Shown piece after piece: positions 40,066 to 51,868 of a stretch of DNA of 64,000 bases. Source of the stretch: Frankineae bacterium MT45 (lineage in GTDB: Bacteria > Actinomycetota > Actinomycetes > Mycobacteriales > Jatrophihabitantaceae); NCBI GenBank assembly GCA_900100325.1, contig LT629697.1:1488001-1552000 (forward strand), given 5' to 3'. A model generated the notes under the pieces. It was not told the origin of the DNA and ran no database searches. It saw only the letters and a list, made by a program, of their open reading frames with translations. Position 1 is the stretch's first letter. Each line of letters starts with the position of its first letter. A program made the translations under genes and the position numbers.

Positions 40066-41103
40066 ATGCCGGAGGATGCCCCCAGGGCAGTTACCTATCA
40101 GCAGACCGGCGGCCCGGAAGTGCTGCAATTGGTGGATAAACCGCTGCTCGAACCGGGTCCCGGCGAAGTTCGGGTCCGTATTCACCGCTCCGGGGTGAAC
40201 CCGACCGACTGGAAAGCCCGCCAAGGCGGCGAATCAAGGAGCATCGTCCCGGCTCAGGTTCCCAACCATGACGGTGCCGGGTTGGTCGACGCGGTCGGGG
40301 CCGGTGTCGAGGTCGCGGTGCTCGGGCTGCGGGTCTGGATCTGGGAGGCGGCGTACCAGCGCCCCGAGGGGACCGCCCAGGAGTTTGCAATCGTCCCCGC
40401 CCGGCAGCTGGTCATGCTTCCCGACAACGCCTCCTACGACCTCGGGGCCTCACTCGGGGTCCCGTTCATCACCGCGCACCGCTGCCTCACCGTCACCGAG
40501 GAGGGGCCGCGACGCCTCGGTCCGGGCACCCTGACCGGCCGGGTCGTCCTCGTCGCCGGCGGAGCCGGAGCGGTGGGAAATGCGGCCATTCAACTGGCCC
40601 GTTGGTCGGACGCGACCGTGATCAGCACCGTCAGCAGCCCGGCCAAGGCGCAACTCGCGGCAGCGGCCGGAGCTGACCACGTCATCAACTACCGCCAGCA
40701 GGACGTCATCGCCGAGATCCGCCGCATCAGCTCGCGGGGTGTCGACACGATCGTCGAGGTCTCCGCCGCCGCGAACGCCGAGATCGACGCCGCGGTCATC
40801 GCCCCGCTCGGGTCGGTGGCGATCTACGCCGACAACGGCGGCAGCGACTTCACCCTCCCGATCCGTCCGCTGATGGCGCCGAACGCGAGATGGCAGTTCG
40901 TGCTGCTGTACACCGCACCGGCGCGGGCCAAGGGGCAGGCGATCGAGGACATCTCGGCGGCCATCCTGGACGATGCGATCGGTGTTGGCGACGCCCACGG
41001 GCTGCCGCTGCACCACTTCCCGCTGGCCGAGACGGCCGAGGCGCATCGCGCGGTGCAGGATTCGGTCACCGGGAAGGTCCTCATCGATGTCGCTGCCGGC
41101 TGA
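40066..41103 (+). CDS. NADPH:quinone reductase-like medium-chain dehydrogenase
   Basis: Encodes 345 residues from ATG 40066, which has AAGGAGA 8 bases upstream. The GroES-like half shows HRSGVNPTDWKARQG and VPNHDGAGLVDAVG; the Rossmann half has VVLVAGGAGAVGNAAIQLARW (about 170), and ADHVINYRQQDV. There is no structural or catalytic zinc cysteine set, so it belongs to the zinc-free quinone oxidoreductase/crotonyl reductase branch. Substrate not predictable. The final codons overlap the start of otsB. Confidence 0.9.
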   Translation: MPEDAPRAVTYQQTGGPEVLQLVDKPLLEPGPGEVRVRIHRSGVNPTDWKARQGGESRSIVPAQVPNHDGAGLVDAVGAGVEVAVLGLRVWIWEAAYQRPEGTAQEFAIVPARQLVMLPDNASYDLGASLGVPFITAHRCLTVTEEGPRRLGPGTLTGRVVLVAGGAGAVGNAAIQLARWSDATVISTVSSPAKAQLAAAAGADHVINYRQQDVIAEIRRISSRGVDTIVEVSAAANAEIDAAVIAPLGSVAIYADNGGSDFTLPIRPLMAPNARWQFVLLYTAPARAKGQAIEDISAAILDDAIGVGDAHGLPLHHFPLAETAEAHRAVQDSVTGKVLIDVAAG

Positions 41104-41932
41104 GCGCAGCGGCGGCGGCGACCAATTCGGCGGCGACCATGGCGGCGGCGCTGCCGCGCCACTGGTGGCTGCGCTTCGAGCCCACCTGCCGCAGAGCCTC
41201 ATCGCCCTCGACTTCGACGGCACCCTGGCCCCGATCGTCGCGCGCCCGGCCGATGCCCGGCCAATCGACGGCGCCCTGGAGGTGCTGCGCGGGCTGGTCG
41301 AGGGTGGTGCGTCGGTGGCGATCATCACCGGACGGGAGGCTCGCACCGCTCTGGAGCTGAGTGGTGTGGGCGAGCTCCCCGGCCTCGTCGTCGCCGGCCT
41401 CTACGGCGCGCAGACCTGGCGTGACGGCGAGCTGGAGACGGTGGAGGCGCCGCCCGAACTCGACGAGGCCCGCGCCCAGCTCCCCGCGCTTGTGGAGGGC
41501 GTCTCATCCCAACTGTGGATCGAGGAGAAGGGCCTGTCGCTGGTGGTGCACGCCCGGGGCCTTGACGATCCGGATGCCGCGATCGACTCGCTCCGCCCGT
41601 CGGTCGAGGCGCTGGCCGCCCCGCTCGGCCTCGAAGTGCACGCTGGGCGGCGGGTGCTGGAACTCCGCTTGGCCGGTTTCGACAAGGGGCGAGCGCTGCG
41701 GGAGGTCGTGGCCGCCGCCGGCCGGTCGCAGCTCCTCTACGCCGGCGACGACGTGGCTGACCGTCCGGCCTTCGCTGTGGTGCGGGAACTGCGCGCGGCC
41801 GGCCGATCGGCGTGGGCGGTCGCGGTGAGTTCACCCGAGGTCCACTGGAGCGAGCAGGGCGACGGTCTCGATGCCGTGGTCGATGGGCCGTCGGGCCTGC
41901 TGACCCTGCTACGAGCTGTTCTTGGCGGCTGA
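41087..41932 (+). CDS. otsB: trehalose-6-phosphate phosphatase
   Basis: Encodes 281 residues from ATG 41087, inside the upstream gene's last codons, with GGGAAGG about 10 bases before. The HAD motif I is IALDFDGTLAPI (about 40), where the first Asp is the nucleophile; motif III/IV is LLYAGDDVADRPAF, and AIITGREA is motif II. It converts trehalose-6-phosphate to trehalose. It converges on and overlaps otsA by 24 bases at the 3' ends, an unusual layout for a trehalose pair, since they are more often in one operon. Confidence 0.92.
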   Translation: MSLPAERSGGGDQFGGDHGGGAAAPLVAALRAHLPQSLIALDFDGTLAPIVARPADARPIDGALEVLRGLVEGGASVAIITGREARTALELSGVGELPGLVVAGLYGAQTWRDGELETVEAPPELDEARAQLPALVEGVSSQLWIEEKGLSLVVHARGLDDPDAAIDSLRPSVEALAAPLGLEVHAGRRVLELRLAGFDKGRALREVVAAAGRSQLLYAGDDVADRPAFAVVRELRAAGRSAWAVAVSSPEVHWSEQGDGLDAVVDGPSGLLTLLRAVLGG

Positions 41933-43372
41933 GCGGACCTGCCGCAGCTGCTCGTCGAACCACTCTGCCGGTGGGAACTGGCTGGCCGACGCCCGCAGTC
42001 GCGCACTCCGTTCGTGGCCCGTCTCCTCGCCACTCTCCCGTTCGCGCTGCACGGTGGTGAGGGCCTGGTCGAGGGCGGCCGCGGTCTGCCCGACGTCATA
42101 CGGGTTCACCAGAAGCGCGTCAGCGCCGAGGACGTCGGCGGCTCCGGTCTCGCGGGAGAGCACCATCACCGGGTCTCGTTCCGAGAGCAGCACCGCCTCG
42201 AACGCGACCAGATTCATGCCGTCCCGGACGGAGTTGATGAAGACGACATCGGTGAGGGTGAGTGCGGCCAGCGCGCTCGGGTAGTCCTGCTCGATGGTGA
42301 GCAGCAGCGGCGTCCAGTCGTCGGTGCCGAACTCCTCGTCGATCTCGCGCCCCAGCCGCTCCACCGCCGCGGTGTACTCGCGGTATTCGGGGATGTCCTC
42401 CCGGGACGGATTGTCGAAGACGGCGTGCACCACCCGGCTTTGCCACTGCGGAAACCGGTGCAGTAACTCCCGGTAGGCCAGCAGCCCGCGGTAGACGTTC
42501 TTCGACAACTCGGCCCGGTCGACCCGTCCGATCACCAGCCGGTCACCAATCTCCTCGCGGAGCTCCCGGACCGCACTCCGGACGTCGGCCTGCCGCTGCA
42601 ACCCGGCCATCTCCTGCGCGTCCGCGGTGAGGCCGTAGACCTGCAGCTGGTCGTGCGGGACCTTGCCGAGGACGGCCTGGCAGCACTGCTGGAACTGCTC
42701 GGCCCAGCGCCAGGTGTGGAAACCGACGACGTCGGCGCCGAGGATTCCGGAGAGGATGTCGTGGGCGACGTCGTCGGGTAGAAGGCCGAAGTAGTCGGGG
42801 GAGACCCAGGGCGTATGGGTGAAGAAGCCGATCTTCAGGTCGGGCCGACGTTCCCGGAGCAGGGCTGGCAGCAGGAAGAGGTGGTAGTCCTGCACCATCA
42901 CGGTGGCCCCTTCTTCGGCCACCCGGTCCACCGCCTCGGCGAAGCTCTGGTTGTAACGCTCATACGCCGCCCACTGCCCCCGCCACGCGGCGTCGAAGAG
43001 CGGGCGCCGGGTCGGTTCGAAGAGCATGTGCAGCACGAACCACAGGGTGGCGTTGGCGATGCCGTTGTAAGCCCGGCGGAAGGTGACGCCGTCGATGGGG
43101 AGCATCACCACGTCGAAGTCGCCGCCCGCAGCGTCATCGCCGCCTGACCCGCTGAACGTGAGTGGCGCACCGCCGGCCCGCCGAGCCACCGAACGCTCCC
43201 GGTCGGTCATCGCCGAGCAGACCCAGACCGCGTCGCCGGCTGAATCCAGCGCCGCCTGCATGCCGCTGACCAGACCTCCGCCGCCACGGACGGTCTGCTC
43301 CTCGCCGTCCGAACCGACCGATATCGACACCGGCCCTCGATTGGACGCCACTACCAGGCTGGCCTTCGTCAT
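41909..43372 (-). CDS. otsA: alpha,alpha-trehalose-phosphate synthase (GT20)
   Basis: Encodes 487 residues from ATG 43372 (TKASLVVASNRGP), because GGAGG lies 10 bases before it; nine more codons are open upstream. GT20 motifs are visible: ASNRGP, GGGGLVSGM, VQDYHLFLLP, GFFTHTPWVSPDYF, ADVVGFHTW, VDRAELSKNVYRGL, and FINSVRDGMNLVAFE. It transfers glucose from UDP-glucose to glucose-6-phosphate. The HTPW..PDYF variant and longer loops are unlike E. coli OtsA, so a related GT20 role such as glucosylglycerol-phosphate synthase cannot be excluded, but the adjacent otsB favours trehalose. Confidence 0.9.
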   Translation of the reverse strand: MTKASLVVASNRGPVSISVGSDGEEQTVRGGGGLVSGMQAALDSAGDAVWVCSAMTDRERSVARRAGGAPLTFSGSGGDDAAGGDFDVVMLPIDGVTFRRAYNGIANATLWFVLHMLFEPTRRPLFDAAWRGQWAAYERYNQSFAEAVDRVAEEGATVMVQDYHLFLLPALLRERRPDLKIGFFTHTPWVSPDYFGLLPDDVAHDILSGILGADVVGFHTWRWAEQFQQCCQAVLGKVPHDQLQVYGLTADAQEMAGLQRQADVRSAVRELREEIGDRLVIGRVDRAELSKNVYRGLLAYRELLHRFPQWQSRVVHAVFDNPSREDIPEYREYTAAVERLGREIDEEFGTDDWTPLLLTIEQDYPSALAALTLTDVVFINSVRDGMNLVAFEAVLLSERDPVMVLSRETGAADVLGADALLVNPYDVGQTAAALDQALTTVQRERESGEETGHERSARLRASASQFPPAEWFDEQLRQVRSAAKNSS

Positions 43373-43512
43373 CTGCGGTTCATCCTCCGGTTTGCTCATT
43401 CGTCAGCGAAAGGTCTGTATCGAATCCTGCACTCGGTGTACCCGCCAGGAGGCTTCTGCAATCTCGGACACAATCTCCTCCCACTCGGACGCGCCCGTGC
43501 TTCCATATTGCG

Positions 43513-44034
43513 ATGACGAGCCCCGAGGAACCACCGTCTCCGGCCTTTCGGCCCTCCACCGTGGGGAGCCTCGGCTACGGCGAACGCTACGCAACAGACC
43601 AGCCGGAGGAAGTGGCCCTGCCGTGGCTGGGCTGGGCGATCATCGTCACTGCCGTCCTCACCTCTCTCGCCGCGCTGCTTCCGTGGGCCCGAATTCCGCT
43701 GCTGTCGCTCGTGATCTCCGGTACCGATCTAGGCAAGCTGCTCGCTCTGCTACCCATCCTCGTTGCGCTGATCGGCGTCCTCGTGCTGCTGCGGTGGGGG
43801 ACGCTCTGGGTATGCATCGCCGCCGTGGCGTTCAGTGCCTGCGAGTTGATGCTGGTCTTCGTCGAATCCGTCGGCCTCACCGCCGATCAGGCCACCGAAC
43901 ATCAGGTCTCGCCAGATGATGTCGCGCTGGCCTACGGGCTCTGGGTGACGCTCTTCCTCGCCGCGGTCTGCTTGATCTGCTGCGTATGGGCGCTCTCGGC
44001 CCGGCAAGCGAAACCGCGCAGTCAGCTGCGCTAG
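43513..44034 (+). CDS. hypothetical four-span membrane protein
   Basis: Encodes 173 residues. A polar N-terminus of about 38 residues is followed by four hydrophobic segments: LGWAIIVTAVLTSLAALLPW, LLALLPILVALIGVLVLL, LWVCIAAVAFSACELMLVF and YGLWVTLFLAAVCLICCVWALS. Only the loop E-SVGLTADQATEHQVSPDD is long. I do not recognise the family. Convergent with the phosphatase-superfamily gene that follows. Confidence 0.7.
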   Translation: MTSPEEPPSPAFRPSTVGSLGYGERYATDQPEEVALPWLGWAIIVTAVLTSLAALLPWARIPLLSLVISGTDLGKLLALLPILVALIGVLVLLRWGTLWVCIAAVAFSACELMLVFVESVGLTADQATEHQVSPDDVALAYGLWVTLFLAAVCLICCVWALSARQAKPRSQLR

Positions 44035-44060
44035 TCGGGTTCGTCAGGCCCGAGACGACG

Positions 44061-45758
44061 TCAGTGTGGTTGGCCGGTGCTGTTCGACGGCCCGTAGGCG
44101 GTGAGGAACCGATCACGGAAGGCGTCCATCGGCCAGACCGGCGCCGTCGGCGAGGGCAGCAGGCCGTCCTGCCAACCCCAGCCGGCGATCTGCCCCAGGA
44201 CGCTCGGGTCATGGGCGATGATCGAGATCGGCACCTCGTGGTTGGCGCCGGCGCCGCTGACGATCGTCGCCGGCTGATGGTCGCCGAGCATCACCAGCAC
44301 GAGATTGTTGTCGTGCAGGTTGGTCACCCAGCCGACGAGTGCGTTCAGGGAGTACTGCACCGATTCGCCGTAGCTGGCCTGCACCTTGGCCGCGTTCGGC
44401 CAGATGGCGCTGGGCTGCCGACCCTGCGCCGGCATCTCGTCGAAGACCGACCCGTCACCGACCGCGCTCCAGGGCACTAGCCGGGGCAGTGGTGCCCACG
44501 GGGTGTGGGAGGAGACGAGATCTATCTCGGCCATCACCGGTGCGTGCCCCGGCTTGAGTTCCGCCCGCTGGAACGCCGAGAGCGTGTACTGGTCGGGCAT
44601 CGACGCGTAGGAGAACTTCGGACCGGCATAGCCGACGCCGCGTTCGTCGTAGAGCCGGTCATAGTGATAAAACGACGTGCCCTGCGCCCAGACGCCCTCA
44701 TTTGACGGCACATCGCCCACCGTTCGCCAGCCCGCCCGCTTGAACGCGTCGGAGAGGGTGAGGCGGTTGCTTGAGACGAGCTGGTTGTAGCGCTGCTGAT
44801 TGTTGACCCAGAGCCCGGACTGCAGGGTCGAGTGGGCCAGCCAGCTGATGCCGCCGAAGGTCGGTGAGGTGAGGAAGGCGCTGCGGGCCGAAAAACCGGC
44901 CGACCCCAATGTTTTGTTGCCGGTCTGCAGCACCTGGTCGATGGGCGGGGAGAAGGAAGTGCCCTGTACGGCGACCTGTCCGTAGCTCTCGACGAAGGCG
45001 AAGATGACGTCCTTCCCGCGCAGGCTGGTGAGGAGGCTGCTCCCCGATGCGGCGCTGAATGCGTCGTGAGATCCGAGTAGTGACTCGAAACGCTGCTGGT
45101 CCTGCACCGCCGTGCCGGCGTCGCGTACCTGCTCGGCCGCCAGCTGAGAGACGCCGTGGGCGGCGACGGGAACGCCGGAGACGGCGCTGACGCTGAACGC
45201 GGCGCAGAGGATCCACACGGCGGCCAGCGCCCCGATCACCCGGCCGGCCGCCCGGCGATGGGAGGCGCCGAGGGTGGTGAGTCGGATCGCCGAGATGGTC
45301 ACTAGGACGATCAAGCCGGCGACGACGGCCAGCGCCACCACGGCCGCGGCGTCGGCCTCGGCGCGCCCGATGGAGTCCTGTACGACACCGAAGCCCGGCC
45401 CGATACTGCTCCAGTCGATGATCGGGTTGAAGGGACGGTCGAGCTCCTCGTAGAAGCCGATGTCGAGCAACTTCACCACGACCAGCAGGCCGAGCAGCAG
45501 ACCGGCGACCGCAGCCAGCACCTGACGCGGCCGCCGTGGCAGGACGAGTGAGAGACCGACGAGCAGCAGCCCCTCGATCGGGATCTGGAGGGCGGACGCC
45601 GGGGTGAGCTGCTCCAGACGGTTCGGAAATATCAGGGCTCCCCAGACGATGAGGAGCGCCAGCACGCTCCAGGCCAGTCGTGCCGCCGGCCGCCACCGGT
45701 CCCGGATGCTGCGCTTCGGGCTGGACGGGATCGCGGGCGCGGGTGCCGGGTCAGACAT
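44061..45758 (-). CDS. membrane sulfatase/alkaline-phosphatase superfamily enzyme
   Basis: Encodes 565 residues from ATG 45758, with its first codons overlapping the stop of the CDP-alcohol gene (ATGTCTGA). Four or five N-terminal transmembrane helices (to about 215) are followed by an extracytoplasmic catalytic domain: DVIFAFVESYGQVA (about 255, metal site and nucleophile region), SPTFGGISWLAHSTLQSGLW (Thr/Ser of the active site), VMLGDHQPATIV (metal-binding DH), as in lipoteichoic-acid-synthase-like and phosphoethanolamine transferases. The usual ESxSxxN is ESYGQVA, a variant. It might transfer or remove a phospho-group on a lipid-linked glycoconjugate. Part of the pterin/GT locus. Confidence 0.8.
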   Translation of the reverse strand: MSDPAPAPAIPSSPKRSIRDRWRPAARLAWSVLALLIVWGALIFPNRLEQLTPASALQIPIEGLLLVGLSLVLPRRPRQVLAAVAGLLLGLLVVVKLLDIGFYEELDRPFNPIIDWSSIGPGFGVVQDSIGRAEADAAAVVALAVVAGLIVLVTISAIRLTTLGASHRRAAGRVIGALAAVWILCAAFSVSAVSGVPVAAHGVSQLAAEQVRDAGTAVQDQQRFESLLGSHDAFSAASGSSLLTSLRGKDVIFAFVESYGQVAVQGTSFSPPIDQVLQTGNKTLGSAGFSARSAFLTSPTFGGISWLAHSTLQSGLWVNNQQRYNQLVSSNRLTLSDAFKRAGWRTVGDVPSNEGVWAQGTSFYHYDRLYDERGVGYAGPKFSYASMPDQYTLSAFQRAELKPGHAPVMAEIDLVSSHTPWAPLPRLVPWSAVGDGSVFDEMPAQGRQPSAIWPNAAKVQASYGESVQYSLNALVGWVTNLHDNNLVLVMLGDHQPATIVSGAGANHEVPISIIAHDPSVLGQIAGWGWQDGLLPSPTAPVWPMDAFRDRFLTAYGPSNSTGQPH

Positions 45759-46473
45759 GGCTCTGCGCGCTGACCAGCAGCACCGGCGCCGGCACACCCC
45801 GATGCCGATACAGCCAGAGCACCTCCCGACCGAACGACTCGGCCAGCAACCCCAGGGACGTCAGCAGTAGCAGCACGGCAACCCCCACCGGCAGCAACTG
45901 CGGCGCGATCGCGGTGAGGAGGATTCCCTGGATCGCGGCCACCACCTTGCACCAGTAGCGCGGCGGGGCGGGTTCACGCAGCCACGGCCAGAGTGATCCC
46001 GCGGCCAGCAGCAGGTAGCGGGCCGCTCCGATCAGCAAGACCCAGCGTCCGAAGAGGCGCGCGTCGTAGCAACTGAGAGCCAGGATCAGCAGCGCGTCGG
46101 TCTCCAGATCGAATCGCGCGCCGAGCGCGGATACGGTGCCGGTGGCTCGGGCCACCCGGCCGTCGACGCCGTCCAGGATGAGCGCCACGGAGGCTAGGAC
46201 GACCAACGCCTTCAGTGAGATCGCCCCGCTGATGGACGAGACGATCAGCGCACAGACCCCACCCACCAGGGCGGCCCGTAGCAGGGTTACGCGGTCGGCC
46301 GGTCCGACCGTGGTTCCGGCGCGAGCCAGCCCGGAGGCGAGTAGCCCGTTCACGACCAGGGCCACCGCAATGCCGACAAGCCAGCCGCCGAACGTCAAGC
46401 CGACGGTCAGGCTGAGCCCGGCGAGTACCGCCAATCCGGCGGCGAACCCGATGCCCAGAGCTGCTCGAACCAT
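45751..46473 (-). CDS. CDP-alcohol phosphatidyltransferase family protein
   Basis: Encodes 240 residues from ATG 46473; GGAGGTGCG precedes it. The signature D-x2-D-G-x2-A-R-x8-G-x3-D-x3-D is intact in LILDGVDGRVARATGTVSALGARFDLETDALL (about 98-128), so it should catalyse displacement of CMP from a CDP-linked alcohol. Six to seven hydrophobic helices. Extra upstream frame to 46812 overlaps the divergent dehydrogenase and is not used. Substrate unknown; position beside PTPS, GT4 and RibD genes suggests a lipid attachment step. Divergent from the dehydrogenase, 85 bases away. Confidence 0.9.
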   Translation of the reverse strand: MVRAALGIGFAAGLAVLAGLSLTVGLTFGGWLVGIAVALVVNGLLASGLARAGTTVGPADRVTLLRAALVGGVCALIVSSISGAISLKALVVLASVALILDGVDGRVARATGTVSALGARFDLETDALLILALSCYDARLFGRWVLLIGAARYLLLAAGSLWPWLREPAPPRYWCKVVAAIQGILLTAIAPQLLPVGVAVLLLLTSLGLLAESFGREVLWLYRHRGVPAPVLLVSAQSHV

Positions 46474-46558
46474 CAAGGTCGCACCTCCGTATAAGTGGTG
46501 TATACCGTTGATACGGAGTGTGCCCTGACTCGGTTCACTTCCGAAGGAGGGTTCGTCG

Positions 46559-47536
46559 ATGGCGGGTAGCGCGCGGGCGTTCTGGACCACCGCGCCCGGG
46601 GTCGGCGAGATCCGCTCCGTCCCGGTTCCCGAGCCCGGGCCGGCGGACGTGCTGGTGCGGACCCTGCGATCCGGTATCAGCCGGGGGACGGAATCCCTCG
46701 TGTTTCGCGGCGAAGTGCCGGCGAGTGAGTACCTGACGATGCGAGCCCCCTTCCAGGAGGGCGACTTCCCGGGCCCGGTGAAGTACGGGTACCTGAACGT
46801 CGGGGTGGTCATCGGCGGGGTGCCGGAACTCCTCGGCCGCGAAGTCTTCTGCCTTTACCCCCATCAGACGCAGTACGTGGTCCCGGCTCGCTCCGTCGTC
46901 GCGCTGCCGGAGGGGCTTCCGACCGGGCGCGCCGTGCTGGCCGGCACCGTTGAGACCGCGGTGAACGCCCTCTGGGACTCCCCGCCGCTGATCGGCGACC
47001 GGATCTCGGTCGTCGGCGCCGGCATGGTCGGCTGCTGCCTGGCCCGGCTACTCTCCCGCGTTGCTGGAGTGCGGGTCACCCTAATCGACGTCGACGAGAC
47101 CAGGGCCAAGACCGCGGCCCGGCTGGGTGTGAAGTTCGCGCTCCCCGGCGAGGCGGAGGGCGAGCAGGACGCCGTCTTCCACGCCAGCGCCAGCGCGTCC
47201 GGGCTGCAACTCAGCCTTGCACTCCTTGCGCCCGAGGCCGAGGTGATCGACCTGAGTTGGTACGGAGACCGGGAGGTGACCCTCTCCCTCGGCGGGGCGT
47301 TTCACTCCCGGAGGCTGGCGGTGCGGGCCAGCCAGGTCGGTTCCGTGGCGCCGGCCCGGCGATCCACCCGGGCCCTGCGCGACCGGTTGACCCTCGCCCT
47401 CGACCTGCTGGTCGACGATGCCTTCGACGCGCTGCTGGATGGCTCATCGCCCTTCGCCGAGCTCCCCGACTTCCTACCCCGAGTGGCCGCCTCGTCCGGT
47501 CTCTGCCACACGGTGACATATGAGAAGGAGAGCTAG
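46559..47536 (+). CDS. MDR-family zinc-free-like dehydrogenase
   Basis: Encodes 325 residues. The Rossmann motif is [19 protein letters not shown] (about 141-160), with DVDETR at the end of beta-2 and a GVKF following strand; the N-terminal half has [17 protein letters not shown] and [18 protein letters not shown], the layout of sorbitol/threonine dehydrogenase-like proteins, but the zinc ligands C/H/E are not obvious ([17 protein letters not shown] is the only candidate). Such dehydrogenases with GTESLVFRG accompany PTPS-like genes in actinobacterial loci I recall. It starts the cluster on this strand. Confidence 0.85.
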
Positions 47537-47538
47537 GA

Positions 47539-47937
47539 ATGTTCAGCGTGACGGTGCGCGACCACCTGATGATCGCCCATAGTTTCCAGGGTGAAGTCTT
47601 CGGCCCGGCCCAGCGACTGCACGGTGCGACCTACGTCGTGGACGCGACCTTTCGCCGCCCCGAACTCGACGATGACGGGATCGTCGTCGACATCGGTCAG
47701 GCCACCCAGCAGTTGCACAAGGTGCTGGCCGACCTCACCTACCGCAACCTCGACGAAGTGCCCGAATTCGCCGGTGTCAACACCTCGACCGAGTTCCTGG
47801 CCCGGGTCATCGCCGACCGCCTGGCCGCCCGGGTACATGCTGGCTCCCTCGGCGCCGGGGCCGGTGGCCTGACCGGACTCACCGTGACGCTGCACGAATC
47901 CCACGTCGCCTGGGCCGGGTACGAGCGATCGCTATGA
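47539..47937 (+). CDS. divergent 6-pyruvoyl-tetrahydropterin synthase (PTPS/QueD) homologue
   Basis: Encodes 132 residues, the usual PTPS length. Fold markers are there: MIAHSFQGE (first Zn His at 14), RLHGATY (His28), [31 protein letters not shown] (about 47-76), [15 protein letters not shown], and [15 protein letters not shown] (Glu that anchors the pterin). Two catalytic features are changed: the Cys four residues before His28 is Ala24, and HGH is HGA, so the third Zn ligand is absent; the catalytic His of LDHHYLND is replaced (LTYRNLDE). It therefore should not make 6-pyruvoyltetrahydropterin or carboxytetrahydropterin; it may bind a purine- or pterin-like ligand or catalyse another aldol step. 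Coupled to the GT4 gene by a 4-base overlap. Confidence 0.88.
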
Positions 47938-49040
47938 GGGAGGTGCAGTTCGTCGTTGCGGAGGGGATCGACGATCCGGCCCGTCCCAGCGGTGGCAACA
48001 GCTACAACCGCCGGGTGCGGGACGGCCTCCTCGCCGCGGGGTGGGGTCTGCGCGTCGACGAGGTGGCCGGCGCGTGGCCGGCCGCCGATCCGGCGGCCCA
48101 CGCGAGGCTGAACTCGCTACTGAGCGCCGCGCCCGACGGCGCCACGCTGCTCATCGACGGTCTGATCGCCTCGTCCGTACCGGAGATTCTGGCTACCCAC
48201 ACGCGCCGTCTGCGCCTGGTCGTCCTACTGCACATGCCTCTCGGCCTCATCACGGGCAATGAGGACGGCCGGCGGGCGGAGGAGGCGGCACTCTCGGCCG
48301 CCGCGGCGATCGTGACGACCAGCGGCTGGAGCCGCGACCGGCTCCTCGAGCTGTACCCGCTGGACCCGACCCGGATCAGCGTCGCCCGGCCCGGGGTTGA
48401 AGCGGCCCCGCTCGCCGCTGGATCGGAGTCCGGTCAGGAACTCCTCTGCGTGGGTGCGCTGGCCGAGCACAAAGGGCAGGATCTCCTGCTCGCTGCCCTG
48501 GCCGAGTTGCCGGACCTCTCGTGGCGTTGCCGCTTCGTCGGCCCGACCGACCGAGACCCGGCCTACGTCGCCCACCTCATCGCGAGGAGCGCAGAGAGTG
48601 GGCTTGCGGATCGTGTCAGCTTCGCCGGCCCTCGGTCAGGTGCGGAGTTGGCGGGCAGCTACGCCGAAGCCGACGTCCTGATCCTCCCCTCGCGGTTCGA
48701 GTCCTACGGCATGGTGATCACCGAGGCCCTGGCCCGGGGGATTCCGGTGATCGCGGCAGCCGTCGGGGGCGTCCCGGAGGCGCTCATGCCGGCCCGCGAT
48801 GAGCGTCGCCCTGGCCTGCTGCTCCCCCCCGAAGACCCCGCTGCGCTCGCCGAGGCGCTGCGGCGCTGGTTGAGTGAACCGCCGCTGCGCCGATCGCTGC
48901 GCGCGCTCGCCCGCGAGGTGCGCCCGGAGCTGTCAGGATGGGAGGAGACCACCGCACGACTGGCTCTGGTGCTGGACGGAATCGGCCGCCAGGGTGAACT
49001 CGTGTCGGCGCCGGGTCGTATCTCTCTACGACGGGGTTGA
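47934..49040 (+). CDS. GT4-family glycosyltransferase
   Basis: Encodes 368 residues; ATG overlaps the PTPS stop (ATGA). The GT-B core is visible: [20 protein letters not shown] (about 165-182), [39 protein letters not shown] (about 243-282) with the EX7E motif (E-SYGMVIT-E) of retaining enzymes. The N-terminal half begins [27 protein letters not shown]. It would add a sugar from a nucleotide donor to an acceptor that is presumably the pathway product. Cytosolic or membrane-associated. Part of a tight operon. Confidence 0.93.
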
Positions 49041-49057
49041 GGGAGGTCAGGAGGAGC

Positions 49058-50056
49058 ATGCAGGCGATGCTGCGCAGCTGGTGGCGTCCGGTGACGGGCG
49101 CGGTGATCCTGCTTCTGCTCGGCTGGCGCATCGGCGCCGGGCCGTTCCTCGACGGGCTGCGCGGCCTGAGTCTGGCCACGCTCCTCGCGGCCGTCCTCGT
49201 CACCGCCGTGACCACCATCTGCTCAGCCGCCCGGTGGCGGGTGATCGCGGCCGGCCTCGGCGTCGGCCTCACGCTGCGTGGTGCGGTCGCGGCCTACTAC
49301 CGCTCCCAATTCCTCAACAGTGCCCTCCCCGGCGGGGTACTGGGTGACGTCCACCGCGGCATGCGCCACGGCCAGGACGTCGAGAACGTCGGCGGTGGGC
49401 TGCGGGCCGTCGCGCTGGAGCGTACGGCTGGCCAGTTCGTGCAGACGACGCTGGCCGTGGTGGTGCTGCTGGTACTGGCCTCTCCGGTTCGCTCGGCGAT
49501 GCCGAAGGTCCTCCTCATCACGGTGCTTGCCGTGCTGGTTGCGGCGCTTCTGGTCCGCCGATTCCGTCTCTCCCGACTCCGTCTCGGCCGGGCGATCGGC
49601 TCCGACCTGCGCCGCGGGCTGCTGCACCGCGGCGCGTGGCCCACGGTCCTGGCGACCTCGGCCGCAGTCGTCGCCGGGCACGCCGTCATCTTCTTCATCG
49701 CGGCTCGGGCCAGCGGCGCCGAAGTCTCCTGGACCCGGCTGCTTCCCCTGACAATGCTGGCCCTTCTCGCCATGTCGGTGCCGTTGAGCGTCGGCGGCTG
49801 GGGTCCACGCGAGGGCGTGACCGCGTGGGCCTTCGCCGCGGCCGGCCTTGGCGTCGACCAGGGAATCGCCACCGCCACCGCCTACGGGGTGATGGCGTTC
49901 GTGGCGACGCTCCCCGGCGCAATACTGCTGGTCACCGACGCACTGCGCCGCCGACCGGTCGCCATCACCGCAGCCGTGCCGATGCCGATGCCGATGCCGG
50001 TGCCGATGCCGGTGCCGGTCCATGCCATCGCCGGAGCCGGAGCCGGCCATGGCTGA
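49058..50056 (+). CDS. UPF0104/LPG synthase-like membrane protein (flippase-like)
   Basis: Encodes 332 residues from ATG 49058, with AGGAGGAGC 5 bases upstream. About eight helices; FLNSALPGGVLGDVHRGMRHG (about 85-105) and PLSVGGWGPREGVTAWAFAAAGL (about 245-268) are the conserved loops of the lysylphosphatidylglycerol-synthase TM region/UPF0104 family, members of which move or export lipid-linked products. The C-terminus ends in a low-complexity PMPMPVPMPVPV tail, coded by near-perfect 6-bp repeats. The gene overlaps the RibD-like gene by 8 bases (ATGGCTGA). Confidence 0.85.
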   Translation: MQAMLRSWWRPVTGAVILLLLGWRIGAGPFLDGLRGLSLATLLAAVLVTAVTTICSAARWRVIAAGLGVGLTLRGAVAAYYRSQFLNSALPGGVLGDVHRGMRHGQDVENVGGGLRAVALERTAGQFVQTTLAVVVLLVLASPVRSAMPKVLLITVLAVLVAALLVRRFRLSRLRLGRAIGSDLRRGLLHRGAWPTVLATSAAVVAGHAVIFFIAARASGAEVSWTRLLPLTMLALLAMSVPLSVGGWGPREGVTAWAFAAAGLGVDQGIATATAYGVMAFVATLPGAILLVTDALRRRPVAITAAVPMPMPMPVPMPVPVHAIAGAGAGHG

Positions 50057-50837
50057 GGTCCCCTACACGCTGCTCAGCTGCGGAGTCTCCATCGACGGCT
50101 ACCTGGACTCGGCGACCCAGCCCCGGCTCACCCTCTCCAACCAGGCCGACTTCGACCGGGTCGACGAGGTGCGGGCCGGCGTCGACGCCATCCTCGTCGG
50201 TGCCGCCACCATCCGGAACGACAACTGCCGCCTGCTCGTCCGCTCGCCGGCCCGCCGCGCCGCGCGGGTGGCCCGCGGGCTGGCCTCGTCGCCGGTGAAG
50301 GTCACGCTGACCCGGCGGGGCGACCTCGATCCGGCCGCGAACTTCTTCAGCTGCGGCGACGGGGCGAAGTTCGTCTACTGCCCCGGCGGGGTGATCGACC
50401 AGGCCCGGGCCCGTCTGGGGTCGGTGGCGACGGTGATCGACGCCGGCGGTGGGCCGGACGTGGATCTGCGCATCGTCTGCGAGGACCTCTTCGCTCGCGG
50501 CATCCGGCGCCTGATGGTCGAGGGCGGCGGGACGATCCATACGCAGTTCCTCACCGCCGGACTGGCCGACGAGCTGCACCTGGTGGTGGCACCGATATTC
50601 GTCGGCGATTCCCGGGCCCGCCGCTTCGTCAACGACGGCGACTTCCGCTGGAGCGGACAGGATCGGGCTGAGCTCATCGAGGTCCGTCAGATCGAGGACG
50701 TCGTACTGCTGCGGTACGGGCTCTCGGCCCGCGCCACTGACCACGCGGACTCACCTCAGGGTCGTGTCGGGGTTGTACCTGATGTGTTTTCCCGGCGACG
50801 CGTGAATGATGACCCCATGGTCGCGCGCGAGCGCTAG
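50049..50837 (+). CDS. RibD C-terminal-type (dihydrofolate reductase fold) reductase
   Basis: Encodes 262 residues from ATG 50049, in the stop codon region of the flippase gene. The reductase domain alone is present: LLSCGVSIDGYLDS (about 8-21), EVRAGVDAILVGAATIRNDN (about 39-58), RRLMVEGGGTIHTQFL (about 156-171) and DELHLVVAPIFVGD. No N-terminal deaminase domain, so it is not the riboflavin enzyme RibD itself but a paralogue that may reduce a ribosyl-pyrimidine to a ribityl one or a similar sugar. The C-terminal 30 residues are unlike the family. Confidence 0.88.
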   Translation: MAEVPYTLLSCGVSIDGYLDSATQPRLTLSNQADFDRVDEVRAGVDAILVGAATIRNDNCRLLVRSPARRAARVARGLASSPVKVTLTRRGDLDPAANFFSCGDGAKFVYCPGGVIDQARARLGSVATVIDAGGGPDVDLRIVCEDLFARGIRRLMVEGGGTIHTQFLTAGLADELHLVVAPIFVGDSRARRFVNDGDFRWSGQDRAELIEVRQIEDVVLLRYGLSARATDHADSPQGRVGVVPDVFSRRRVNDDPMVARER

Positions 50838-50890
50838 GCGGGTTCGGGGCGAGTCGTCGCCGGCCCGCGGCCGAACCGGAGGAGGTTGCG

Positions 50891-51868
50891 GTGGTGGCTG
50901 CAGGAACGTTGTCCCGAGAGAAGCTCTCCGAAGGCGACGAGCAGTGGGCGGTGCAGACACAGGGGTTGGTCAAGAAATTCGGCTCGAACGTCGCGGTGGA
51001 CGGTGTCGACCTGCGTATCCCGCGCGGCTGCGCCTTCGGCTACCTGGGCCCGAACGGGGCCGGCAAGACCACGCTGATCCGGGTGCTGCTGGGGCTCACC
51101 TCCGCCGACGCCGGCTCGATGTCGCTGCTCGGCTACCCGGTGCCGAAACACCGCGATCGGGCTCTGGCCCGGGTCGGCGCGATTGTCGACGAGCCTCGCT
51201 TCCACGGCCACCTGACCGGGCGGCAGAACCTGCGCCTACTGGCCGCGGCCCGGGAACCGGAGGCCCGCAGCCGGATCGATCCGGCGCTGGAACGGGTCGG
51301 CCTGAACCAGCGCAGCGGTGACAAGGTGTCGAGATACTCGATGGGGATGCGGCAGCGACTCGGTGTGGCCGCCTGCCTGATCGGTGACCCCCAGCTGCTC
51401 ATCCTGGACGAGCCGATGAACGGCCTCGACCCGGCCGGCATGCACGACATGCGCGACATGATCCGGTCGCTGGTCGATGAGGGGCGCACCGTCGTGCTCT
51501 CCTCGCATCTCCTCGACGAGATCGAGCGGACCTGCGACGCGGTGGCCATCGTCGATCGCGGCACCGTCATTCGGCAGGGTCCGATCAACGATCTCCTCGC
51601 CGGTACCTCGATCACCCTGCAGATCGACTGCTCCGATCCCGATCGGGCCCGGACCCTGCTGGCGGCCACGAATCTCGCCGCGGCGGTCGAGACCCTCGAC
51701 GACGGAGTGACGGCGACGCTCCACGGCGACGCCCAGAACGACGTGATCGCCGAGATCGCCCGCATCCTGGTCAGCGAACGCATTGACCTGTATCGACTTC
51801 AGCCCGTCCACGCCTCGCTCGAGTCGTGGTTCCTGCAAGTGACGAGCCGGCTCGGTGATCCCAAATGA
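50891..51868 (+). CDS. ABC transporter ATP-binding protein
   Basis: Encodes 325 residues from GTG with GGAGGAGG 7 bases upstream. Walker A GPNGAGKTTLIRVLLG (about 54), signature YSMGMRQRLGVA (about 150), Walker B LLILDEPMNGLDPAG (about 171), and H-loop SSHLLDEI. It belongs to the CcmA/DrrA-like subfamily of exporters for drugs or lipids. Overlaps the permease gene by 4 bases, so the two form one two-component transporter. Confidence 0.93.
   Translation: MVAAGTLSREKLSEGDEQWAVQTQGLVKKFGSNVAVDGVDLRIPRGCAFGYLGPNGAGKTTLIRVLLGLTSADAGSMSLLGYPVPKHRDRALARVGAIVDEPRFHGHLTGRQNLRLLAAAREPEARSRIDPALERVGLNQRSGDKVSRYSMGMRQRLGVAACLIGDPQLLILDEPMNGLDPAGMHDMRDMIRSLVDEGRTVVLSSHLLDEIERTCDAVAIVDRGTVIRQGPINDLLAGTSITLQIDCSDPDRARTLLAATNLAAAVETLDDGVTATLHGDAQNDVIAEIARILVSERIDLYRLQPVHASLESWFLQVTSRLGDPK

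Follow-up and report, generated by a model that had tools for sequence, protein, structure and literature searches.

Homologues of 6-pyruvoyltetrahydropterin synthase (PTPS) that carry the signature FGPAQ form a group, named PTPS-IV in earlier work, which the passages of PMC5445326 devoted to it describe as AGeNNT cluster-node 62, comprising 561 sequences with PF00925 and RibD_C proteins as neighbours; PF00925 is taken there as FolE2/GTP cyclohydrolase I (GCH I). The Streptomyces coelicolor protein SCO6650, whose structure has been solved (PDB 3d7j), would by its sequence belong to the same group. Here we analyse a locus at positions 44061-50837 of a 64,000-nt stretch (the window; LT629697.1, positions 1,488,001 to 1,552,000) of the genome of Frankineae bacterium MT45 (4.23 Mb, single contig, 99.92% complete), in which a PTPS-IV-type gene stands among genes for a glycosyltransferase, a CDP-alcohol phosphatidyltransferase (CDPOH) and membrane proteins (Table 1). 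An initial annotation, made from the open reading frames of the window by sequence reading and with no database searches, had called this locus undescribed. No description of the cluster as a whole or of its product was found among the matches listed in open-licence literature, and the relevant passages of PMC11888242 and PMC13118837 do not describe it; PTPS-IV with its PF00925 and RibD_C neighbours, however, was already in print in the passages of PMC5445326 cited above, and 3d7j had been solved. The cluster is real, conserved and incompletely described, and the interest lies in the system more than in the window copy, which is a reduced version without two usual members, a methyltransferase and GTP cyclohydrolase II (GCHII). 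We see an even chance that the locus represents, in reduced form, a widespread type of cluster whose product is a GTP-derived polyol of pyrimidine or pterin type, conjugated to a sugar and a membrane lipid.

Relatives were collected by a PTPS alignment scan of species genomes, which gave at least 598 pattern matches and at least 594 confirmed stretches (one gene may give two), and the 80 relatives considered here are the best 80 of these at least 594, with 73-80% PTPS identity. They include Streptomyces, Micromonospora, Actinoplanes, Actinomadura, Pseudonocardia, Amycolatopsis and a few metagenome-assembled genomes, are rich in the first two genera and are not independent. By tblastn (E<=1e-6), the MDR-family dehydrogenase gene was found in all 80 loci, that of the GT4-family glycosyltransferase in 78, a methyltransferase in 77, the flippase-like UPF0104 protein in 77, CDPOH in 73, GCHII in 72, a creatininase-family protein in 49, the RibD_C-type reductase (RIBD) in 35 and an enzyme resembling lipoteichoic acid (LTA) synthase (LtaS-like) in 15; for the 63 loci whose flanks are complete, the corresponding counts were 63, 61, 62, 62, 60, 58, 43, 25 and 12. 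Twenty control stretches of 18.5 kb, taken elsewhere in five cluster-carrying genomes, gave no match to any reference protein, and the contrast rules out unlinked hitchhiking. Gene arrangement is conserved as well, with MDR directly 5' of PTPS in 78/80 loci, GT4 directly 3' of it in 78/80, and the divergent pair of CDPOH (minus strand) and MDR (plus strand) kept in 65/80. The initial annotation had named homologues scattered singly in other genomes as the outcome that would speak against its proposal; the genes proved instead to be linked, and its statement that a GCHII paralogue adjoins similar sets in other actinobacteria agrees with the 72 loci that have one. In G204, which falls in the same taxonomic order as MT45 and has the full cluster, the genes run LtaS-like gene, CDPOH, MDR, PTPS, GT4, methyltransferase, UPF0104, GCHII and RIBD, and the window order is this one minus methyltransferase and GCHII. 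A Micrococcales metagenome-assembled genome (L073) has the window order from CDPOH to RIBD and likewise lacks methyltransferase and GCHII; its contig measures 8.1 kb and begins at CDPOH. Possible fusions, seen as two matches in one stop-free frame, join GCHII to RIBD in a Pseudonocardia metagenome-assembled genome (L038:13360-14544) and GT4 to the methyltransferase in L036.

More distant versions occur as well, and the cluster is common to many bacteria and some haloarchaea. In an even sample of 396 Actinomycetota genomes, main-class PTPS was present in 10 (56-100% identity, the window's own genome counted) and distant PTPS (36-44% identity) in 18, of which 17 belong to family f19; the remaining one (G185) encodes a protein of QueD type (L015), used here as a control. 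Fourteen of the 17 f19 genomes were fetched, and 13 of their loci have RIBD, MDR, PTPS and GT4 in this order, with roughly 30-46% identity; in the remaining locus (L114) no GT4 match is seen near the contig end. GCHII lies just upstream in a single f19 locus (L118), and a folB homologue adjoins the cluster in 13/14, two of them confirmed by Pfam. A long open frame had hinted at a PTPS-GT4 fusion in f19, but a stop codon separates the two genes, and the fusion was discarded. Matches to an 'acyltransferase' and a tRNA-synthetase-like protein were also seen near f19 loci.

Plasmid records gave 26 PTPS matches, of which 16 were examined, one of them (L107), which had no annotation, by tblastn. The eight proteobacterial plasmid loci have MDR directly 5' of PTPS (8/8), a methyltransferase (8/8) and RibD (7/8), and GCHII, CDPOH, the LtaS-like gene and cytochrome b in 4/8 each. 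Of ten haloarchaeal records returned by a haloarchaeal query, eight were examined: MDR lies just upstream of PTPS in 8/8, with a reversed gene between the two in L112, and a methyltransferase is present in 8/8 and CDPOH in 5/8; in L171 the PTPS match is split in two, and no gene is annotated for it. In four of these loci (L020, L106, L171 and L174) the gene at the methyltransferase place is annotated 'hypothetical', and its product gives weak to moderate methyltransferase-domain matches and is homologous to annotated methyltransferases of its own group. In L020 and L106 (Methylosinus and Neorhizobium), the direct neighbour of MDR-PTPS-GT4 is annotated as mdoH (membrane glucan glucosyltransferase), which perhaps provides a different carrier or sugar arm. 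The linked cytochrome b gene was seen in the proteobacterial loci L019, L021, L022 and L108, with the b561 type (PF01292) confirmed in L021, hinting at a redox-active membrane product.

The entry enzymes say most about the starting material. Two haloarchaeal (Haloarcula) loci contain GTP cyclohydrolase III (GCH III; PF05165, 272.6 bits in the one scanned), in a gene annotated as GTP cyclohydrolase IIa, and two other haloarchaeal loci contain a creatininase. GCH III forms the formylated diaminopyrimidine ribosyl phosphate FAPy, the free form of which is APy. GCHII and GCH III are unrelated enzymes for the same reaction, and that both are found with this gene set, across two domains, is the strongest argument that the pathway starts from GTP via FAPy or APy; the opening of GTP to a diaminopyrimidine thereby has good support. 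The S. coelicolor GCHII paralogue SCO6655 is said, from work by Spoonamore in 2006, to form FAPy, and presumably carries Met where Escherichia coli GCHII has Tyr105. In the cluster GCHII of Streptomyces fungicidicus, Met120 aligns with Tyr105 of the E. coli enzyme (2bz0). Among 86 GCHII sequences (87 were found in the fetched loci, and the weak GCHII-like L017 was dropped), 56 have no Tyr at this position (45 Met, 9 His, 1 Gln, 1 Cys), and a creatininase is found in all 56 of their loci; it is found in none of the 30 loci with Tyr, 28 of which are of the cluster (L015 and L016 are not), although three of the 28 (L010, L051 and L067) are on stretches shorter than 15 kb, where its absence is weaker evidence. 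A passage of PMC9478397 reports that the creatininase-family enzyme BrbF releases formate from FAPy.

That the cluster itself holds no GTP cyclohydrolase, as first annotated, was borne out: the two PF00925 matches of the genome both lie beyond the window, which rules out a GCHII hidden within it. One is weak (L017, G000:C1:273968-274366, 81 bits, in a 392-aa open frame), and the only strong GCHII of the genome is a RibBA (DHBP_synthase and GTP_cyclohydro2 domains) that has Tyr, in agreement with the absence of any creatininase-family protein from this genome. The best RibD_C match of the genome lies ~1.4 kb from the GCHII match of RibBA, and we take the two to be its riboflavin locus; the window RibD_C is second best of ten. 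RibBA would be the source of APy, the GCHII product, in MT45. A methyltransferase acting in trans was looked for with the G204 protein, which had no match in the window genome. In S. coelicolor, SCO6655 presumably lies in the same cluster as SCO6650, judging from locus-tag spacing and gene order in other Streptomyces. A passage of PMC2853524 lists two GCHII genes, SCO6655 (r -0.61) and SCO2687 (r -0.52), among those whose expression runs opposite to predicted flux, and states that the majority of the listed genes rise in stationary phase; this pattern would fit a special product. The cluster would give a role both to the FAPy-forming Streptomyces GCHII and to PTPS-IV (3d7j).

The window PTPS matches SCO6650 over 132/132 residues (E 4e-65) and has the FGPAQ signature at residues 21-25, of which G, P, A and Q at 22-25 are found in 100/100 main-class rows with letters there. 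It belongs to the same PF01242 fold family as QueD and 6-pyruvoyltetrahydropterin synthase and keeps two of their three zinc His, but in its CxxxHGH motif A24 and A30 replace the Cys and the third zinc His (100/100 main-class rows with letters), and T67 and Y68 stand where those enzymes have the Asp-His dyad (Tyr at 68 in 101/101 main-class rows). The QueD-type control has both Cys and His at the CxxxHGH positions, and the f19 and haloarchaeal proteins have kept the third zinc His and have no Cys. Glu120, the pterin-anchoring residue of the family, is kept in 119/119 PTPS-IV rows (101 main-class, 14 f19, 4 haloarchaeal). The initial annotation had correctly noticed that the catalytic residues were gone, and since they are, the window PTPS is not QueD or PTPS by mechanism. 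A PTPS fold with this Glu is suited to a 2-amino-4-oxo edge, and PTPS-IV probably binds the same edge. Most annotated plasmid records (for example L018-L025) label PTPS-IV as 6-carboxytetrahydropterin synthase (QueD, queuosine), which is probably a systematic misannotation, contradicted by the residues.

A passage of PMC5041015 cites unpublished work for a role of archaeal PTPS-IV in coenzyme F420 synthesis. If the cluster served that purpose in Actinomycetota, PTPS-IV should go with CofG, and CofG is indeed found in 9/10 genomes with main-class PTPS-IV and in the window's genome; yet it is also found in 191/396 genomes of the sample, 182 of these without main-class PTPS-IV, and G008 has PTPS-IV and no CofG match at E<=1e-40. 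To our knowledge, F420 synthesis requires no CDP-alcohol transferase or flippase. The co-occurrence pattern makes such a role in Actinomycetota unlikely, and as an explanation of the cluster we consider it very improbable.

The following route would connect these observations. The core of the product would be a GTP-derived 2-amino-4-oxo-pyrimidine or pterin-type polyol. GCHII, or GCH III in some haloarchaea, would open GTP to FAPy or APy, with the creatininase-family formamidase acting where FAPy forms and RibBA giving APy in the window genome. The RibD-like reductase, to judge from its family, would then convert the ribosyl to a ribityl chain with the 2-amino group kept, and MDR and PTPS-IV would remodel the intermediate, whose 2-amino-4-oxo edge would be held by Glu120; we favour, speculatively, oxidation at C2' and ring closure to a 7,8-dihydropterin. 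GT4 would glycosylate and, in most relatives, the methyltransferase would methylate the compound. Finally, the CDP-alcohol enzyme may place an alcohol of the product on a phosphatidyl group, UPF0104 may move the conjugate across the membrane, and the LtaS-like enzyme of some members may transfer the phospho-head group outside. The gene content fits heterocycle or polyol synthesis, glycosylation, lipid attachment and translocation, as initially proposed, whereas the product and its lipid step are what we infer from that content.

Several observations weigh against this route, and they concern mainly the reductase and the lipid arm. Starting with the entry step, the association of residue 105 with creatininase amounts to one change on the GCHII tree (support 97/81), so that it is perfect, yet does not represent many independent events. 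RIBD is absent from the locus in 45/80 relatives. In six genomes placed with Streptomyces by the GCHII tree, its nearest homologue (52-59% identity; L159-L164) lies outside the cluster; five of the six have a GCHII-like protein close to it, and these outside homologues are fused to a deaminase domain in 5/5 scanned. These features of RIBD weaken the case for a reductase step in every member and would fit a flavin-type product. The window reductase itself exceeds the PF01872 cut-off of 24.1 and matches no other Pfam family, with no deaminase domain; its best NCBIfam model is TIGR01508, an archaeal-type diaminopyrimidine reductase (119.8 bits, the cut-off of 186 not being reached). Enzymes of the TIGR01508 type act before deamination. 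Nine reductases were scanned, and those of the window, L003, L026 and L034 match TIGR01508 best, below its cut-off; L020, L021, L025 and L011 match the bacterial RibD C-terminal model best (L011 above cut-off), and L159 matches bacterial RibD best. With best models so mixed, retention of the 2-amino group is weakly founded outside the window's branch. PTPS and RIBD co-occur strongly in the 396 genomes (PTPS in 10, RIBD in 14, both in 9; Fisher p 3e-14), a result of little weight, since the outside homologues scanned are deaminase-fused and the sample is not phylogenetically independent.

These findings are the ground for a different product, a flavin- or lumazine-like compound derived from 5-amino-6-ribitylaminouracil and then glycosylated and exported. 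GCHII and RibD are riboflavin-type enzymes, and both the deaminase-fused homologues of the Streptomyces group, with their GCHII-like neighbours, and the 4/9 reductases that best match the bacterial C-terminal model point the same way. Such a compound would have lost the 2-amino group, however, and the window reductase has no deaminase domain and shares with three relatives a best match to the archaeal-type enzyme; the PTPS fold with its conserved Glu suits a 2-amino-4-oxo edge; and folB, a pterin gene, stands beside 13/14 f19 loci, though these are of one family. On balance we hold a flavin- or lumazine-like product to be unlikely.

For the lipid arm, the window CDPOH has the motif D..DG..AR(8)G...D...D intact. 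The protein of the first gene (44061..45758) had no match in Pfam or NCBIfam, but E257, T300, H418, D493 and H494 are invariant across 15 aligned sequences including its own, and we take these residues to correspond to conserved positions of LtaS. Its AlphaFold model has a low mean pLDDT (64.6), with 24/33 ten-residue blocks of the catalytic part (residues 231 to 560) at or above 75. The best Foldseek matches are LtaP/LtaS (4uop and 4uor; E 3e-8, 14-16% identity, and a modest TM of 0.29-0.47); GacH, EptC and MCR-1 are also among the best PDB matches, all of them, like LtaP/LtaS, membrane phospho-alcohol or phosphoethanolamine transferases, and sulfatases rank after them. The model and the residues thus give this protein a predicted LTA synthase-like fold with conserved Thr and metal ligands, and bear out the original 'phosphatase-superfamily membrane enzyme', placing it with LTA synthases in the alkaline phosphatase superfamily.

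Within the lipid arm, CDPOH is absent from 7/80 actinobacterial loci and from the examined stretch of 4/8 proteobacterial and 3/8 haloarchaeal loci, and the LtaS-like gene, found in just 15/80 relatives' loci, is optional. The product might then be a soluble, secreted pterin or pyrimidine glycoside, for which cyanopterin of cyanobacteria is a model, and the CDP-alcohol and LtaS-like genes would act on something else. GT4 and the methyltransferase are close partners of PTPS, and MDR, PTPS and methyltransferase occur with no CDPOH in the stretch in 7/16 proteobacterial and haloarchaeal loci, as a soluble glycoside would allow. The frequency of CDPOH (73/80) and UPF0104 (77/80) in the actinobacterial loci is harder to reconcile with it, as is the recurrence of CDPOH, at differing positions, in 4/8 proteobacterial and 5/8 haloarchaeal loci, and we regard a soluble product as rather improbable. 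A glycosylated and lipid-linked product would account for these genes.

A bolder form of the lipid-linked reading is that the cluster encodes a second, GCH I-independent route to pterins. GCHII or GCH III would be followed by RibD and MDR, which together would mimic an Amadori shift (C1' reduced, C2' oxidised), and by ring closure on PTPS-IV, a T-fold protein rid of its former catalytic triad; the glycerol-like side chain would be glycosylated and phosphatidylated, giving a new class of membrane lipids with a redox-active glycosyl-pterin head. Such lipids would be common to actinobacteria, haloarchaea and proteobacteria, the last of which in some cases have a linked cytochrome b561. We offer this as a long shot.

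Table 1. Features of the PTPS-IV locus of Frankineae bacterium MT45 (positions in the window)
Feature	Coordinates	Strand	Evidence
LTA-synthase-like membrane phosphoalcohol transferase (alkaline phosphatase superfamily; SULF), 565 aa	44061..45758	-	invariant residues, predicted fold
CDP-alcohol phosphatidyltransferase (CDPOH), 240 aa, start ATG at 46473	45751..46473	-	PF01066 47.9 bits and intact motif
divergent intergenic region, 85 bases	46474..46558	.	between CDPOH and MDR ATGs
MDR-family dehydrogenase, BchC-like	46559..47536	+	TIGR01202 BchC 47.7 bits, far under cut-off 291
PTPS-IV-type 6-pyruvoyltetrahydropterin synthase homologue, signature FGPAQ	47539..47937	+	PF01242 86.9 bits
GT4-family glycosyltransferase	47934..49040	+	PF00534 109.2 bits
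UPF0104 / LPG_synthase_TM flippase-like membrane protein	49037..50056	+	PF03706 99.2 bits
RibD_C-type reductase (RIBD) without deaminase domain	50022..50837, start 50022 or 50049	+	PF01872 126.5 bits

All seven genes of the locus are open reading frames at the coordinates first assigned to them (Table 1). Pfam families above cut-off in the window proteins were CDP-OH_P_transf, PTPS, GT4 families, LPG_synthase_TM (UPF0104) and RibD_C. The MDR protein exceeded Pfam cut-offs only for generic nucleotide-binding models (ApbA and NAD_binding_8), with ADH_zinc_N under cut-off, and in NCBIfam it matched BchC and threonine-dehydrogenase models, both under cut-off; the closest NCBIfam model of GT4 was MshA (96.9 bits, under its cut-off). 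The close packing initially described, with overlaps of 4-8 bases, is seen between the LtaS-like gene and CDPOH (8 bases), PTPS and GT4 (4) and GT4 and UPF0104 (4), but MDR and PTPS are separated by a 2-base gap, and the overlap of UPF0104 with RIBD is 8 or 35 bases depending on which RIBD start codon is chosen. GGAGG-type ribosome sites precede the ATG of both CDPOH and MDR, which diverge across 85 bases. The single divergent promoter proposed at the outset is suggested by this layout, but a simple scan of 43900-51000, divergent gap included, gave no sigma-70-like promoter. A possible inverted repeat in the gap, CCGTAT ... ATACGG, was noticed by eye and might be an operator.

The flanking genes (otsA, a 173-aa membrane protein, an ABC transporter, its permease and a PLD-like gene) were searched for in all fetched loci at E<=1e-20 and matched only in the window's own locus, in three random control loci and, for the ABC proteins, in three distant f19 loci. 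They are not conserved with the cluster, and the locus boundaries drawn in the initial annotation therefore hold. Trehalose phosphatase and a GT20 trehalose-phosphate synthase lie near the cluster, at 40973-43399, the synthase having no match in the relatives' loci.

The significance of the locus is that of its relatives. At least 594 confirmed PTPS-IV stretches occur in species genomes, the cluster surrounds nearly all of the best 80 and the haloarchaeal copies, and it predicts a guanine-derived compound linked to a sugar or a lipid; should that compound prove to be a pterin lipid, membrane cofactors would gain a new kind. Among described systems, the closest is the PTPS-IV neighbourhood of PMC5445326 together with SCO6650, with which the cluster shares the FGPAQ signature, RibD_C in the window and a PF00925 neighbour in the relatives; the window locus itself has RibD_C and no PF00925, and GT4, MDR, methyltransferase, CDPOH, UPF0104 and the LtaS-like enzyme are not named in the passages of that paper on PTPS-IV. 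The GCHII paralogue SCO6655 has its likeness in the S. fungicidicus cluster enzyme, with Met at the place of E. coli Tyr105, and differs from the situation in MT45, where the locus has no such gene and the RibBA of the genome has Tyr. In LTA synthesis, a CDP-alcohol enzyme makes the lipid and LtaS transfers the phospho-head group. The cluster likewise pairs a CDP-alcohol transferase with an LtaS-like enzyme, similar in predicted fold and in alkaline phosphatase-superfamily residues, but it adds enzymes for a GTP-derived heterocycle, its LtaS-like protein is distant in sequence from LtaP/LtaS, and the system is known here from its genes. Pteridine glycosides such as cyanopterin and solapterin also combine a pterin with sugar transfer, but the relatives of the window locus enter by GCHII or GCH III and not by GCH I, and the cluster has a membrane arm.

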